Assembly: GCA_026398595.1 (NCBI GenBank)
Contig: JAPLSO010000048.1
Location: 62,001-126,000, forward strand
Reading direction: 5' to 3'
Source: Spirochaetota bacterium
GTDB taxonomy: Bacteria; Spirochaetota; Spirochaetia; Treponematales; Rectinemataceae
DNA: 64,000 nucleotides
A program made the position numbers and the translations under genes. This document shows, piece by piece, positions 1-43,545 of the stretch. Under the pieces are notes generated by a model. It saw only the letters and a list, made by a program, of their open reading frames with translations, searched no databases and was not told the origin of the DNA. How positions within the stretch are numbered: the first letter of the stretch is position 1; each line of letters opens with the position of its first letter.

Positions 1-404
1 AGCGCGTGAGGAAGCTGTCCGTCCGGATAGCCAGCAAGCTCGGCATGGACAAAAAGCAGATTATAGCCCTGGAATACGCGGCTCTTCTTCACGACATCGG
101 CAAGATCGGCATTCCCGAACGTATCCTGAACAAAAAGGGGCCGCTCGACGCCGACGAGATTGAGGTGATGAAGATGCATCCTCTTATCGGCGCACAGATT
201 CTATCTATCGTTGAATTCTTCGCCCCGGCGATAAATGGAGTACGTCACCACCATGAGCGCTGGGATGGCAAGGGCTATCCGGACAAGGTGGCCGGAGAGG
301 ACATCGACCCTCTGGCGCGTCGATCGTCAAGGTGTTTCTCGAGGAGAAGCTCTACGAGGATTACCTCTGAGGCGGGAATGTTCTCCGCGGCTCAGAACCT
401 GTAG
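1..404 (+). pseudogene. HD-GYP domain phosphodiesterase, 3' part, internally deleted
   Basis: The reading frame enters from the left edge of the window, so the 5' part is missing. The visible part is the core of an HD-GYP domain, the family that hydrolyses cyclic di-GMP. It shows the metal-binding LLHDIGKIGIP motif, the H-P-x-x-G-A helix start, the HHERWDGKGYP motif, and then GEDI-PLAR. Family members normally continue with about 45 more residues (a VADAYDAM-type stretch). Here the frame runs into unrelated sequence and stops at 404. From position 317 another frame reads ASIVKVFLEEKLYEDYL and stops at 370, which looks like the genuine C-terminus. The simplest reading is a deletion near 315-320 that also shifts the frame. 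An assembly error is possible. Confidence 0.75.
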
Positions 405-1504
405 ATAAAGCGGCCCGGTACGGTCTCCCCCGACCTATTGAAGAACACGCCTCGTTTGAACCCATAGAGGAGAGCTTTGTCAATCTCCGGGTCTCCCGAA
501 GACTGGAGGATGTCGGCCCCTTTGAGTTGTCTGTCCTTCGTCACGGTAAAACCTATGACCACGGGATTCAGGGTATTGCCTTGGCGGTAATCCGCGTTGG
601 AGGGGTTGTATCCCCCGTCCTCGAGGATCATCCAGAGCGGCTCGCGCTGTTCCAGCGGAACGTCGATTTTCAGCATGTAGGCTGTCCCATCGAACTCATA
701 ATATTGGGAAACGGCTTTCCTTCGCTCCTGAGCCGTGAACTGCATCGTGCCAAAATCGGTTTTCTGATCGGGAATAGCGTTATAGATTGACGCAGGGATC
801 GTTTTCGGCAAGGGAAGGCTATAGTAAATCGGTACATAGATGATTTGCCCGACAGTCCCCTGAGCCCCGCCCAGGTAGGTGTCCGATGCGCTGCCCTTCT
901 CGGTTTTATGAATGGTGACGCCTCCCGTCCAGGGGACTTGGCCCTGGCCAGGCACGTAAATCGAGGATAAGGCACTCTCCTGACGCGAGCCGGGGCCCCT
1001 TTCGCCCGGCACCCAGGGCTCGGCGACGGTGGTTTGCGTCGAGGGGGGCTGGACAGCTGCCGAGGCCGGCGCCTGGACAATGGGTTCTTGGCTCATGGTG
1101 TAGGCCTTATCCTTGGGCTTTACCGGTGCCGCGGACTGAGGCGCCGGGGCAACTTGTTTCGCCGGCTTGGACTCGGCTTTGGCGGCAGGGGCTGAGGCTA
1201 CCTTCGTCGTGTCGGCTTTGGGGGCCTCGGCGGCCTTCGCCGGAGTCTGCGGCGCCGGCTGAGGATTCGGACTTTCCTCGCCTACTTCCGAGGGATGAAG
1301 AGAACCTTGTCCCGGCTCAGGCGCCACGGGCCCGGGAAGGTTGACTATGACCGTCATGTTGGAGAAAATCTGTTCCTGAGGGCGGATGATACCGTACAGG
1401 AGGCTCATCCCGAAAATGAAGCCATACAGGCCCATGGTCATGCCAAAGGAGATGAAACCGCGCTTCTTCTCCTGCTGGTCGGCATAACTCGCCAGGGATT
1501 TCAT
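392..1504 (-). CDS. TonB-like periplasmic energy transducer
   Basis: This is a 370-residue protein with one N-terminal membrane segment (about residues 17-40), then a long Pro/Ala/Lys-rich stretch (about 60-170) and a folded C-terminal domain. This is the architecture of TonB/TolA proteins, which carry energy from an ExbB-ExbD motor across the periplasm. The C-terminal region (VVIGFTVTKDRQL, then a stretch ending in GRFIYRF) resembles the TonB C-terminal fold, where short strands flank a helix, but similarity is weak. It is the last gene of the exbB-exbD-tonB operon: its ATG overlaps the exbD stop by four bases. Its 3' end overlaps the end of the damaged HD-GYP frame on the other strand. Motor coupling is inferred from gene order. 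The outer-membrane partner is not in the window. Confidence 0.75.
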   Translation of the reverse strand: MKSLASYADQQEKKRGFISFGMTMGLYGFIFGMSLLYGIIRPQEQIFSNMTVIVNLPGPVAPEPGQGSLHPSEVGEESPNPQPAPQTPAKAAEAPKADTTKVASAPAAKAESKPAKQVAPAPQSAAPVKPKDKAYTMSQEPIVQAPASAAVQPPSTQTTVAEPWVPGERGPGSRQESALSSIYVPGQGQVPWTGGVTIHKTEKGSASDTYLGGAQGTVGQIIYVPIYYSLPLPKTIPASIYNAIPDQKTDFGTMQFTAQERRKAVSQYYEFDGTAYMLKIDVPLEQREPLWMILEDGGYNPSNADYRQGNTLNPVVIGFTVTKDRQLKGADILQSSGDPEIDKALLYGFKRGVFFNRSGETVPGRFIYRF

Positions 1505-1917
1505 CGTACGGCCTTCTCCTTCTTGGTGATGAGGCCCACGTTTTGCATGCCATTCTGACGGAAGGCATCTAGGACGGAGATGATGAGCTGATACGGCGCA
1601 CCCGAGCGTCCCTCCAGGACAGCCTGTACCGAATTCGCGTCTGAACCCGCCACCCTCTGCTTGAGTATTCCGGGCAGGGCTTGGAGGGAAGTTCGCGTTT
1701 TGTCGACGTAGATCTCGTCCTCGGACATGACGAGGACGCGGATGGCCGAAGACTGGACCGACTGTGCCGTGTTGGAGTTCGGAAGGTCGAGCATGATGCC
1801 GGGGGCCGTCCTGAAGGTCGTCGTGATCATGAAGAAGATAATGAGCTGCAATATGACATCGATGAGCGGCGTCATATTGATTTCTGTCTTCGCGCTGAGC
1901 GCTCGTCGTCTGTTCAT
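1501..1917 (-). CDS. exbD: ExbD/TolR family biopolymer transport protein
   Basis: This is a 138-residue protein with a short cytoplasmic N-terminus, one membrane helix (about residues 15-38) and a periplasmic domain. Just before the helix is the family hallmark INMTPLIDVILQLIIFF, which includes the Asp (LIDV) that carries protons in ExbD/TolR/MotB-type stators. Length is typical for the family. It overlaps exbB upstream and tonB downstream by four bases each, so the three are translationally coupled. With ExbB it should form the inner-membrane proton channel that powers the TonB-like protein. Confidence 0.9.
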   Translation of the reverse strand: MNRRRALSAKTEINMTPLIDVILQLIIFFMITTTFRTAPGIMLDLPNSNTAQSVQSSAIRVLVMSEDEIYVDKTRTSLQALPGILKQRVAGSDANSVQAVLEGRSGAPYQLIISVLDAFRQNGMQNVGLITKKEKAVR

Positions 1918-2558
1918 TTTCCCCCCGAAGGATCCTTGGTGGAGGCCCCGCCGATCGACGCGTTGATCGACTGGACGAGGGTGTTTACCTGGCTCTCGAG
2001 GTTATTGAGGATCATGTTCACCTTGGTCACGAAGTAGTTGTAGAAGAGGGTCGTCGGAACCGCGACGACGATGCCTCCCACCGTCGTGATGAGAGCTTCC
2101 GAAACGCCGCTCGCGAGGGTCGTGGGGTCGCTGACGGCGCCGAACTTCCCGAGGACGCCAAAGGCCCGCATGGTACCCGTTACCGTACCGAGGAGGCCCA
2201 GAAGGGGAGCGATCGTGCAGATGCTCCCGAGCCACCACAAGCCACGCTGCAGTTTAGGCTCCTCCTGGGACGCGGCGTCTCGGATCATCTCCTTCTGGAG
2301 GCTTTCGGGCTGGTCTTTATTCTCGATCCCCGCTTTCAGAAGCGTCGAGAAAGGGGAAAGGTTGTTGTCGCAGATGGCCAGCGCTTCCTGGAAATGCCCT
2401 TGCTGAAGGCTCGTCTTGGCGTACTTGAACAGCTTGTTCTCATCCTTGGAAATGCGCCTGAGATACAGTAGTCGTTCTATGATTATCGCGGTGGCCACCA
2501 AGGCAAGCGCCACGATGAACCACATGACGATGCCACCTCGGACGATAAAATCGATCAT
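1914..2558 (-). CDS. exbB: ExbB/TolQ family proton channel protein
   Basis: This 214-residue integral membrane protein has three predicted helices: one at the N-terminus (about residues 8-28) and two in the C-terminal half around GSICTIAPLLGLLGTVTGTM and ALITTVGGIVVAVPTTLFYN. These two stretches match the conserved MotA/TolQ/ExbB signature that lines the ion path. It is the first gene of the operon and has a clear AAGGAG Shine-Dalgarno six bases before the ATG. The 78 bases upstream contain AT-rich promoter-like sequence (a TTGAGT with several possible -10 boxes), but no single promoter stands out. Whether this motor serves TonB uptake or a Tol-like role cannot be told here. Confidence 0.9.
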   Translation of the reverse strand: MIDFIVRGGIVMWFIVALALVATAIIIERLLYLRRISKDENKLFKYAKTSLQQGHFQEALAICDNNLSPFSTLLKAGIENKDQPESLQKEMIRDAASQEEPKLQRGLWWLGSICTIAPLLGLLGTVTGTMRAFGVLGKFGAVSDPTTLASGVSEALITTVGGIVVAVPTTLFYNYFVTKVNMILNNLESQVNTLVQSINASIGGASTKDPSGGK

Positions 2559-36585: not shown

Positions 36586-36708
36586 TTAAGAAAACTTCGC
36601 AAAGAATCCATCTGCCTTGACAGGCTTAAGGTACTGAACAAGGGCGCTGATTGCTGCATAGATGCTGGCCGGGGAGCCCACAGGCTCGCCGAAACGCTGA
36701 TTCTCCAT
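36586..36708 (-). CDS. Possible 40-residue protein
   Basis: This short frame encodes MENQRFGEPVGSPASIYAAI followed by SALVQYLKPVKADGFFAKFS and then TAA. Codon choice is like the neighbouring genes, and the middle forms an amphipathic helix. It has a strong promoter of its own (TTGATA and TATAGA, 17 bases apart, at 36729-36757). No good Shine-Dalgarno sequence precedes the ATG. Its promoter overlaps, back to back, the promoter of the MotA-like gene. No family is recognised, and it could be missed by routine annotation because of its size. Confidence 0.5.
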   Translation of the reverse strand: MENQRFGEPVGSPASIYAAISALVQYLKPVKADGFFAKFS

Positions 36709-36736
36709 TGCCAGGCCGGCCGAAGAATTCTATAGT
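36708..36736 (+). promoter_or_regulatory. Promoter of the MotA-like/FliG-like gene pair
   Basis: TTGCCA (36708-36713) and TATAGT (36731-36736) are 17 bases apart. The -10 overlaps the -10 of the opposite-facing promoter at 36729-36757, so RNA polymerase can bind in only one direction at a time. Confidence 0.6.
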
Positions 36737-36757: not shown

Positions 36758-36777
36758 GTAGACAAGAGGAAAACCTG

Positions 36778-37194
36778 ATGATTCTTTGGAACGCCGAACT
36801 GACAAAAAGGCTCGCTTGCAGCGAGAGGGAGAAAGCCCTTCTTCCCTCGCTGATCGGCGGACTCCTCGGCCTCTGCGATTCGGCCAAAACTGAAGGCTTC
36901 AAATCCCTCGCCCAGTCCGAGGATTCAACCCGGCGTCCCTTCATGGCCTATGGACTCAGGCTCATCGCCGAGGGACTTTCATCCGAGACCATCGAGGAAA
37001 TCCTTGCCATCTACCTCGCCACATCGCCCCTTTCAGGGTATGAGTTCCTGAGTCAGTGCGTATGCGCCGAAGCCCTCCTGTCACTGGCCGCCGGCGATCC
37101 TCGCGACCTGATGCTCCGCAAGCTCGCCCCCTACGCCGGCGCACAGGCGGCCACCGACCTTCTCGAAACCCTTGGCACAGGTAGCGAGTTCTAG
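36778..37194 (+). CDS. Soluble protein resembling the MotA cytoplasmic domain
   Basis: This is a 138-residue protein with no membrane helix. Its pattern follows the cytoplasmic part of flagellar stator protein MotA: a helix with LxxLCDSAKTEGFKSLAQSE (MotA: LAExARREGLLALE), then FMAYGLRLIAEGLSSETIEEI (MotA: FLxxGLxLVVDGxDPExIxxI), and a late ALLSLAAGDPRDLMLRKLAPY (MotA: GxLAIxxGDNPRxIxxxLxAY). The ion-conducting helices are missing. Start and length are supported by the promoter at 36708-36736 and AGAGGA seven bases before the ATG. It is followed five bases later by a composite MotA/FliG-like gene. The resemblance is by eye; the function is unknown. Confidence 0.72.
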   Translation: MILWNAELTKRLACSEREKALLPSLIGGLLGLCDSAKTEGFKSLAQSEDSTRRPFMAYGLRLIAEGLSSETIEEILAIYLATSPLSGYEFLSQCVCAEALLSLAAGDPRDLMLRKLAPYAGAQAATDLLETLGTGSEF

Positions 37195-37199
37195 AAGCC

Positions 37200-38390
37200 A
37201 TGATTGTCAACGCCCTCTGCAGAACCTACGACGCGCTCCACCAGCCCAAGCCTGCGAAGACAATACAGCCGGGAGAGAAGTCCGGGGACACGATCTTCGG
37301 CCTCAGCGCACGAAGGATTACTTCCGCGTTCGAAACCGCGAAGAAATTCGTATCCGCCCTCATCACTATCAGGGAAGGCGGAAAGGAGCGGCTCTCCGAG
37401 ATCCTCCAAAACGAGAAGAAGAAATCCCTGAAATTCTCCCTCTCCCTCCTCGCCTCGCCACTGCCCGAGGAGAAGATACGCGGGGCCTACGCCGAGGCCG
37501 GACTTGCGGGCAGTGATGACCGTGCTGAAGAGTGCGAGAACGTTATGCTCATGACAGGAGTCAGGCTCGCGGTCGGGAACGCCCACCCCATAACCATCAT
37601 GAGGGCCATGACGGCGTATCTAGGTTTTGGTGTCTTCGACGCGGCCGAGACCTGGCTCCTCCAGCGCTTTGCCCCACAGGTCGACGAAGAAGAGGACTTG
37701 ATCGTCCCCGGAGAACTTCCCGACCTCGTAGCCGAACTCGACGGGAACCCTGGACTGCTCTCCCAAGGCTTCAGACTGGCAGGGCCCAAGCTCATCGCGG
37801 CCGCCCTCGCAGGCTGTCCCAAGGAGACTAACGAGGTCATGAAGAGCGCAGCCTTGAGCCGTCTTGGTTGTCTCCTTCTGGATGCGGAGATCATCGACGC
37901 GCGGAACAGGCTCTCCTCGGACGAACTCGCCGACGCCCAGGACGCGTTCTGCGCCCTCCTGAACTCGCTCAATAAGCCAGGGCATCACCTCGAAGGAACC
38001 GAAGAGGAATGGGGCAAGCGTGTGGACAAGAGTGTGGACAAGAATCTGGTTTCGGATCTGACCGAGCTGATCATGGAACTGGACAGGAAGTCCCTGCGGA
38101 CGGTGATGACGGGGCTCGAACCCGATCTCGCTGCCACTCTTATCCAGACTATGACACCTGTCGCCCACGACAGGCTCTTCTCGGTGATACCGCAGAGCCG
38201 CAGCAAGCGGATACTGGATGCCCTCGAGGCAGCCTCACCATTGAGCGCCGTCGAACTCACCCGCAGCGCCCAGCTTTTTGCCCAGAAAGTCCTGGCCGAG
38301 CTGGTGCCCAAGACCAAGTCACTCGGAAAAGCCCTGCCCCTGCCGGCCAAACTGCGGCAGGCCCTCACCGCTATCCTGAGCAGGGAGTGA
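37200..38390 (+). CDS. Composite protein with MotA-like and FliG-like regions
   Basis: This is a 396-residue soluble protein. Residues about 35-145 again follow the MotA cytoplasmic pattern (FVSALITIREGGKERLSEIL, then MLMTGVRLAVGNAHPITIMR and AMTAYLG). Residues about 180-265 and 290-380 each resemble a FliG middle/C-terminal unit; the second reads LEPDLAATLIQTMTPVAHDR, LFSVIPQSRSKRILDALEAA and SPLSAVELTRSAQLFAQKVL. This is the FliG layout of ALKGAxxELRxKILxNMSxRAA, then GPVRLxDVExAQxxIV. Flagellar FliG has no MotA-like part. The torque-generating charged residues of FliG cannot be confirmed here. The gene is linked with the MotA-like protein and converges on proC. Confidence 0.7.
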   Translation: MIVNALCRTYDALHQPKPAKTIQPGEKSGDTIFGLSARRITSAFETAKKFVSALITIREGGKERLSEILQNEKKKSLKFSLSLLASPLPEEKIRGAYAEAGLAGSDDRAEECENVMLMTGVRLAVGNAHPITIMRAMTAYLGFGVFDAAETWLLQRFAPQVDEEEDLIVPGELPDLVAELDGNPGLLSQGFRLAGPKLIAAALAGCPKETNEVMKSAALSRLGCLLLDAEIIDARNRLSSDELADAQDAFCALLNSLNKPGHHLEGTEEEWGKRVDKSVDKNLVSDLTELIMELDRKSLRTVMTGLEPDLAATLIQTMTPVAHDRLFSVIPQSRSKRILDALEAASPLSAVELTRSAQLFAQKVLAELVPKTKSLGKALPLPAKLRQALTAILSRE

Positions 38391-43266: not shown

Positions 43267-43372
43267 CTTCGTTTCGTCGCTTCTTGAAGGGGGCCCCATC
43301 GACGCCCAAAGGGCGGTAGGATCGGCCTTTCGGTCACTCCCAAGGGGATTCAAAAGAAGAAGGCGTACGTCA

Positions 43373-43545
43373 GGCGCTCCGCGGGATCTCGGATCCCACG
43401 ACAGCCGCCGGGTATTAGCCCGGTCGTCCAAGACGGAAGCTGGGGTATACCCTCCGCCCTTCGGCGATTCTCCCCTTTCTGGCAGCATCTACGGGTCCCC
43501 GCCCTCAGCCGCCGTACTGATGGGAATCGCTCCTCCATCGGTTTC
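43373..43545 (-). promoter_or_regulatory. Lysine riboswitch
   Basis: The leader of asd contains the L-box aptamer. In minus-strand order there are GGAGGAGCG near 43536, AGTACGGCGGCTGAGG, the strongly conserved AGGGGAGAATCGCCGAAG (43459-43476), CCGGGCTAATACCCGG as a hairpin, and GGCTGTCGTGGGATC with its complement GATCCC, ending GGAGCGCC at 43373. These follow the Bacillus lysC leader motif by motif (AGAGGUGC, AGUA, GGGGAGCGUCGCCGAAG, GGCUGUC, GGAGGGC). The closing helix P1 is not obvious to the eye. High lysine should switch off asd, lysC, dapB, dapD and probably proC. Confidence 0.87.

Follow-up and report, generated by a model that had tools for sequence, protein, structure and literature searches.

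The analysed window, a 64,000-nt stretch of a Spirochaetota genome of the family Rectinemataceae, contains two genes that are arranged head to tail on the forward strand with a gap of 5 nt. Both open reading frames of this adjacent pair, which had been proposed in the initial annotation, were confirmed. The upstream gene P1 (36778-37194, +) encodes a soluble MotA-like protein of 138 aa, and the downstream gene P2 (37200-38390, +) encodes a soluble protein of 396 aa with a MotA-like domain and two FliG_C-like domains. A Shine-Dalgarno-like motif read from the sequence, AAGAGGA (36764-36770, +), is located 7 nt 5' of the P1 ATG. In addition, a consensus scan yielded a weak sigma-70-like promoter, TTGCCA-17-TATAGT (36708-36736, +), which has a score of 10/12 and a 3'-end 41 nt before the P1 start codon. 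Three sites of this quality were found in the region, compared to 0.7 expected by chance, so that this site, described as good in the initial annotation, is weak evidence for a promoter. The pair is flanked by asd-lysC-dapB-dapD-proC on one side and by Nif3-lspA on the other side, and the same arrangement was found in other members of the family that lack flagellar genes. This synteny demonstrates a native locus rather than contamination. In the flagellated members the flanking genes are different. The neighbors in the non-flagellated members are housekeeping genes and gave no hint to a pathway: asd, lysC, dapB, dapD, and proC form a cluster for lysine and proline biosynthesis, and a lysine riboswitch (RF00168, Rfam, 81 bits; 43366-43545, -) is situated just 5' of asd.

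MotA and FliG are textbook proteins with a single job, which meet at the membrane to turn the flagellum. Using P1 as a single sequence, a search of the PDB retrieved two MotA structures (E 7e-5). When a profile of 28 P1 orthologues was compared with 177,635 PDB sequences, the ten best matches were MotA or PomA (best E 3e-11), and beyond them there were two non-significant others with E-values up to 1. NCBIfam MotA models were matched by 26 of the 28 orthologues (best 1.2e-13). HHalign aligned P1 residues 15-123 with residues 69-250 of a spirochaete MotA (97.7%, E 2.4e-12) in one alignment that skipped TM3-TM4. The match consists of two blocks in the same order as in MotA. P1 residues 15-80 (36820-37017, +) are equivalent to the cytoplasmic loop between TM2 and TM3 (A1 profile columns 23-85, corresponding to MotA 75-137), and residues 86-123 (37033-37146, +) are equivalent to the C-terminal tail after TM4 (columns 86-120, corresponding to MotA 214-248). 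The AF2 model of P1 (pLDDT 89, pTM 0.84) had MotA or PomA as the top 12 Foldseek matches. Because the individual E-values were only 0.08 or higher, the weight of the MotA likeness is carried by the sequence comparisons. Hydropathy analysis did not reveal a membrane segment in either protein: the Kyte-Doolittle maxima over 19 residues were 1.10 for P1 and 1.16 for P2, compared to 1.88-2.61 for true MotAs, in agreement with the earlier view that both proteins are soluble and lack the membrane parts. Taken together, these comparisons establish P1 as the counterpart of the cytoplasmic part of MotA, from which the TM1-TM2 and TM3-TM4 parts are absent. The two proteins thus share a collinear loop and tail with the same predicted fold, but P1 is half as long and lacks the ion pathway and the four transmembrane helices of MotA.

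For P2, the single-sequence search of the PDB gave only noise, and a profile was needed to retrieve FliG (E 1.3e-6). The first domain, D1 (residues 36-160; 37305-37679, +), is a paralogue of the P1 domain, with HHalign values of 96.7% to P1 and 80.5% to MotA. The MotA cytoplasmic pattern that had been noticed by eye in both proteins was therefore recovered in both. The following two domains are FliG_C-like: D2 (residues 173-258; 37716-37973, +) aligned with FliG 270-350 at 73.5%, and D3 (residues 268-368; 38001-38303, +) aligned with FliG 250-338 at 91.1% and contains the Pfam FliG_C match at residues 289-361. In the window P2 this match scored 27.6 bits, above the cut-off of 23.3, and the model was matched by 22 of 29 P2 orthologues (best 7e-16). 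With the AF2 model of P2 (pLDDT 86, pTM 0.62), the best Foldseek match was FliG; for the FliG_C structure 1qc7_B the TM-score was 0.81 by target length, with an rmsd of 1.4. The FliG_M model was matched by only one of 29 P2 members at a non-significant E-value of 0.11, FliG_N had no match in any of the 29, their N-terminus being MotA-like, and a Pfam search did not detect PilZ in P1 or P2. P2 is thus built, as judged from profile alignments, of a MotA-like domain paralogous to that of P1, followed by two domains of the FliG_C type, and the proposed occurrence of MotA and FliG patterns in one chain was verified. Of the middle and C-terminal FliG domains that had been suggested to be present twice, the two units of the C-terminal kind were found, but not the middle kind. 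P2 shares with FliG the fold of the C-terminal torque domain, in two copies, but FliG has in addition FliG_N and FliG_M, of which P2 contains no FliG_N and no significant FliG_M. Because defining features of each were absent when tested, P1 does not qualify as a MotA, nor does P2 as a FliG.

The distribution of the pair was compared with that of flagellar genes in 30 genomes of the family, most of which are draft MAGs. The pair was present in 29 of them. FliM was found in 10 genomes and FlhA, FliMN_C, and PilZ in 11 genomes each, all within the same 11 genomes. In the remaining 19 genomes, including that of the window, the protein-family searches on which the absence of flagellar genes rests detected no FliM, FliN, FlhA, or PilZ; nine of these genomes have a completeness of 90% or higher and no more than 5% contamination. 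In the window genome, FliMN_C, FliG_M, chemoreceptors, and a recognizable MotA were likewise not found, and the other 18 non-flagellated genomes have at most one chemoreceptor each, compared to 21 to 46 in the flagellated ones. Weak FliG_M matches in two genomes (G010 and G021) were disregarded as evidence of flagella, as they belong to frames of 460-475 aa that could encode MgtE, the N domain of which resembles FliG. The pair occurred in 18 of the 19 non-flagellated genomes, and these 18 span seven genera, so that orthologues are not limited to flagellated spirochaetes. The only exception (G089) is a draft that is 87% complete, and a congener (G099) has the pair. Environmental spirochaetes of the Rectinema kind have been reported to be rod-shaped, non-motile, and devoid of flagella (PMC6052044), and the missing genes in the window genome and its 18 relatives fit this report. 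The lack of flagellar switch and export genes in these 19 genomes strongly supports the initial designation of the pair as a non-flagellar relative of the motor.

The residues of the torque contact, which we take to be R90 and E98 in E. coli MotA and K264, R281, D288, D289, and R297 in E. coli FliG, were compared between the two lineages. The E98 equivalent of P1 is Glu in 11 of 11 flagellated members, but in none of 17 non-flagellated members, and the R90 equivalent is Arg in 10 of 11 versus 6 of 17. The window P1 has K at the R90 position and A at the E98 position, so that both residues are replaced. Elsewhere, the E98 position is occupied by Glu in 11 of 13 soluble relatives and in all MotAs but one, which has Asp, and therefore the loss of E98 is a derived state. 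The tree of P1 and P2 alone does not separate gain from loss, and the direction was read from MotA and the fusion proteins described below as outgroup. In D2 of P2, 11 of 11 flagellated members carry the acidic pair corresponding to FliG D288/D289, which for the most part is replaced in the non-flagellated ones; both residues are kept only in flagellated D2. The full charged set of FliG is not retained in P2. K264 is replaced throughout, by A in D2 or Q in D3 and also by R, and R297 has been lost in most cases, flagellated members included, which means that the classical torque contact is already incomplete there. The torque contact appears to have decayed together with the flagellum; this is a correlation, as the residue differences track a single evolutionary split.

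Further soluble relatives were found in other spirochaete families. A single-sequence search of the other families of the order (167 genomes) gave one weak match (L030, E 2e-4), which was rejected as an orthologue because it belongs to a protein of about 600 residues and its alignment is limited to the surroundings of the linker that precedes the last FliG_C-like domain. A profile search, which was confined to the spirochaete phylum, retrieved full-length soluble relatives with a patchy distribution. Among them are soluble proteins of 240-350 aa that contain the MotA loop and tail and FliG_C in one chain; for one of them, L107, the E-values were 4e-21 with the MotP model, 1e-18 with MotA, and 1e-29 with FliG_C. 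Four such fusions (L106, L107, L112, and L113) resemble the pair in domain content and in the lack of a membrane part, but they are encoded by a single gene, have one FliG_C, and have kept R90/E98 and most of the FliG torque residues. The family model of the Leptospira protein LIC10244 (NCBIfam NF047717) matched residues 10-122 of P1 (E 9e-6, 25.3 bits); its curated cut-off of 475 bits was reached by none of the proteins. Another MotA-FliG_C fusion, L117, matched this model almost end to end (residues 9-241 of 252), and LIC10244 thus appears to be such a soluble fusion itself. In the literature, LIC10244 is listed as a 'hypothetical protein' in a table of PerRA/PerRB mutants of Leptospira (PMC8638967). 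The family, which is named 'PerRA/PerRB upregulated protein', has about 250 aa in one chain, whereas the window system consists of two genes.

Several additional arrangements were noted. An 805-aa protein (L196, 8272-10689, -; G016:C1) combines FliG_C (1.8e-13), a leucine-rich-repeat-like stretch, and two MotA-like domains (2e-21 and 4e-11), and frames in its vicinity were, by eye, HNH-nuclease-like and FliM-like. In a genome of the same order as the window (L186, 1932-5712, -; G130:C3), two FliG-like proteins of 243 and 224 aa (FliG_C 1.6e-34 and 8.6e-28) flank a soluble MotA-like protein of 151 aa and a PcfJ-like protein. Another locus of this order (L187, 7085-14681, -; G072:C12) contains three soluble MotA-like ORFs, one of which is fused to a stretch with weak similarity to the DNA polymerase beta clamp; nearby are LRR proteins of the BspA type, and an L[TS]QDEID motif resembling the FliM N-terminus occurs in two further proteins. 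A flagellated relative (L035, 9460-12790; G065:C42) has a second MotA-like protein that is soluble; next to it come a divergent FliM-like protein and an open frame of about 670 residues with a FliG-like C-terminal part, ahead of MCP and CheW genes, and this group reads as a second, partly soluble switch set. Lastly, one frame with 678 aa between stops (L036, 8049-9941, -; G003:C27) resembles FliM in its N-terminal part and FliG in its C-terminal part; standard FliM and FliG proteins are encoded in this genome as well.

The initial annotation had considered a cytoplasmic modulator of the motor, a brake, or an assembly factor. For the 11 flagellated relatives such a role is possible, but in the organism of the window, the genome of which lacks a motor by family searches, a role of the pair in motor control is excluded. 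A related explanation would be that the pair, by analogy with YcgR, has no role other than that of a flagellar brake, clutch, or assembly factor, and that the missing flagellar genes are an assembly gap. The retention of the MotA R90/E98 and FliG D288/D289 equivalents in flagellated relatives, and of most torque residues in the single-chain relatives of other families, would fit this explanation. However, it is unlikely, because FliM, FlhA, FliMN_C, and PilZ are jointly missing from all 19 genomes, including the nine of high completeness and low contamination, because non-motile, flagellum-less rods were described in the Rectinema study (PMC6052044), and because the pair is under purifying selection in the non-flagellated genomes. 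For the window genome it is already contradicted.

Alternatively, the pair could work with a remaining ion-driven motor of the ExbB/TolQ type, as a soluble partner that replaces the flagellar rotor. A MotA_ExbB protein is indeed found in 29 of the 30 genomes, including that of the window, and thus an ion-driven relative of MotA persists. However, the only such protein of the window genome (1914-2558) adjoins exbD- and tonB-like genes, as expected for an ordinary energizer, and its gene is about 34 kb away from the pair, without a visible link, so that we regard this explanation as improbable. The ExbB-, ExbD-, and TonB-like genes lie in a row at 392-2558 (-).

In 27 of 27 relatives checked, the P1 and P2 genes either abut or share a short overlap, in most cases of 4 or 11 nt, and the two genes are translationally coupled and inherited together. 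In non-flagellated lineages, dN/dS values of 0.05-0.14 were obtained for both P1 and P2, indicating purifying selection. A tree of P1 and P2 showed one split between flagellated and non-flagellated members (support 100/100). A tree of the domains placed every P1 and P2 N-domain in one family-specific group (100/99), in which both kinds of domain were represented by flagellated as well as non-flagellated members. The nearest neighbors of this group were short soluble treponemal proteins, followed by the fusions; MotA served as an imperfect outgroup. The duplication thus preceded both the split of the two lineages and the loss of the flagellum. These data bear on the possibility that the pair is a decaying relic left after flagellum loss. 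The erosion of the torque-contact residues in the non-flagellated lineage would be in accord with decay, as would dN/dS values (about 0.1) that are about 2-3 times higher than those of the neighboring proC (0.03-0.04). However, these values are far from neutral, the frames are open and the coupling is intact in 18 non-flagellated genomes of seven genera, and many pairwise comparisons are close to saturation at synonymous sites, so that the retention is old; decay is therefore highly improbable. In two non-flagellated genera, a gene situated directly 5' of P1 encodes a P-loop protein (LGPMASGKTSLC or TGPRGSGKTSFC) with a length of 185-206 aa (L003 3110-3667, -; L004 262-882, +; L005 3214-3804, -; L006 3214-3804, -). 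It was dropped as a functional clue, as it is absent beside the pair of the window.

Profile and fold searches had been set as the test of the proposed homologies, and both returned MotA and FliG, but no HEAT, TPR, or similar helical-repeat proteins for either P1 or P2. HHalign controls with shuffled columns, 30 for each of three comparisons, reached a maximum probability of 1.1%. That P1 and P2 are generic helical-repeat proteins with a convergent likeness to MotA and FliG can practically be dismissed: all-helical proteins can match by chance and the Foldseek E-values were modest (3e-3 for P2, 8e-2 for P1), but only MotA rose above noise among the PDB sequences, its match is collinear across both separated segments, the controls stayed low, and intermediates with both domains in one chain (about E 1e-21 for MotP/MotA and 1e-29 for FliG_C) refute convergence.

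The best explanation, to which we assign a probability of roughly 0.55, is that the pair is a soluble complex that derives from the stator-rotor interface of the flagellum and has a function that outlived it. As the pair is under selection in spirochaetes without flagella, it must serve something other than swimming, and of the roles suggested at the outset, the evidence favors a repurposed system. In such a complex, P1 and the N-domain of P2 would pack together, as neighboring MotA subunits do, and the old MotA-FliG contact would fix the FliG_C-like domains to them, either in cis or in trans, possibly resulting in a rigid cytosolic adaptor. The coupling of the two genes in all 27 relatives lends indirect support to a contact of P1 with P2. 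In the flagellated relatives, which kept torque-contact residues, the pair probably still engages the motor, and it might do so by competing with or bridging FliG and MotA, by analogy with YcgR. After the loss of the flagellum, the torque charges of the pair would have decayed, but the complex may have kept a role as a scaffold or regulator that does not depend on a motor.

YcgR, a motor brake of the PilZ type, acts at the MotA-FliG interface (PMC11800159). The parallel to the pair is confined to function at this interface, as YcgR binds c-di-GMP with its PilZ domain, whereas P1 and P2 have no such domain and PilZ is absent from all non-flagellated members. A search of the open-access literature found no description of a soluble MotA-FliG protein, which agrees with the initial statement that no system of this form was known; the domains were known already, but no account of their arrangement was found there. 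We tentatively consider, with somewhat less than even confidence, that copies of the stator-rotor interface, detached and soluble, may serve spirochaetes as a module for general use in the cytosol, in the form of pairs, fusions, and a FliG_C-LRR-MotA-MotA protein, and that this module might have been carried into functions other than motility, including an independent system in flagellum-less rods. If the soluble motor-domain proteins form one functional class, they would deserve more than the status of variants, and the pair gives a testable idea for the unannotated LIC10244 family of Leptospira and similar proteins. In Rectinemataceae, contact surfaces of the motor are no longer tied to the membrane but are combined in soluble proteins, which were retained long after the flagellum was lost. 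The presence of the pair in flagellated and flagellum-less sister lineages represents a clean evolutionary experiment, in which it is possible to distinguish the residues required for torque from those required for the other function.
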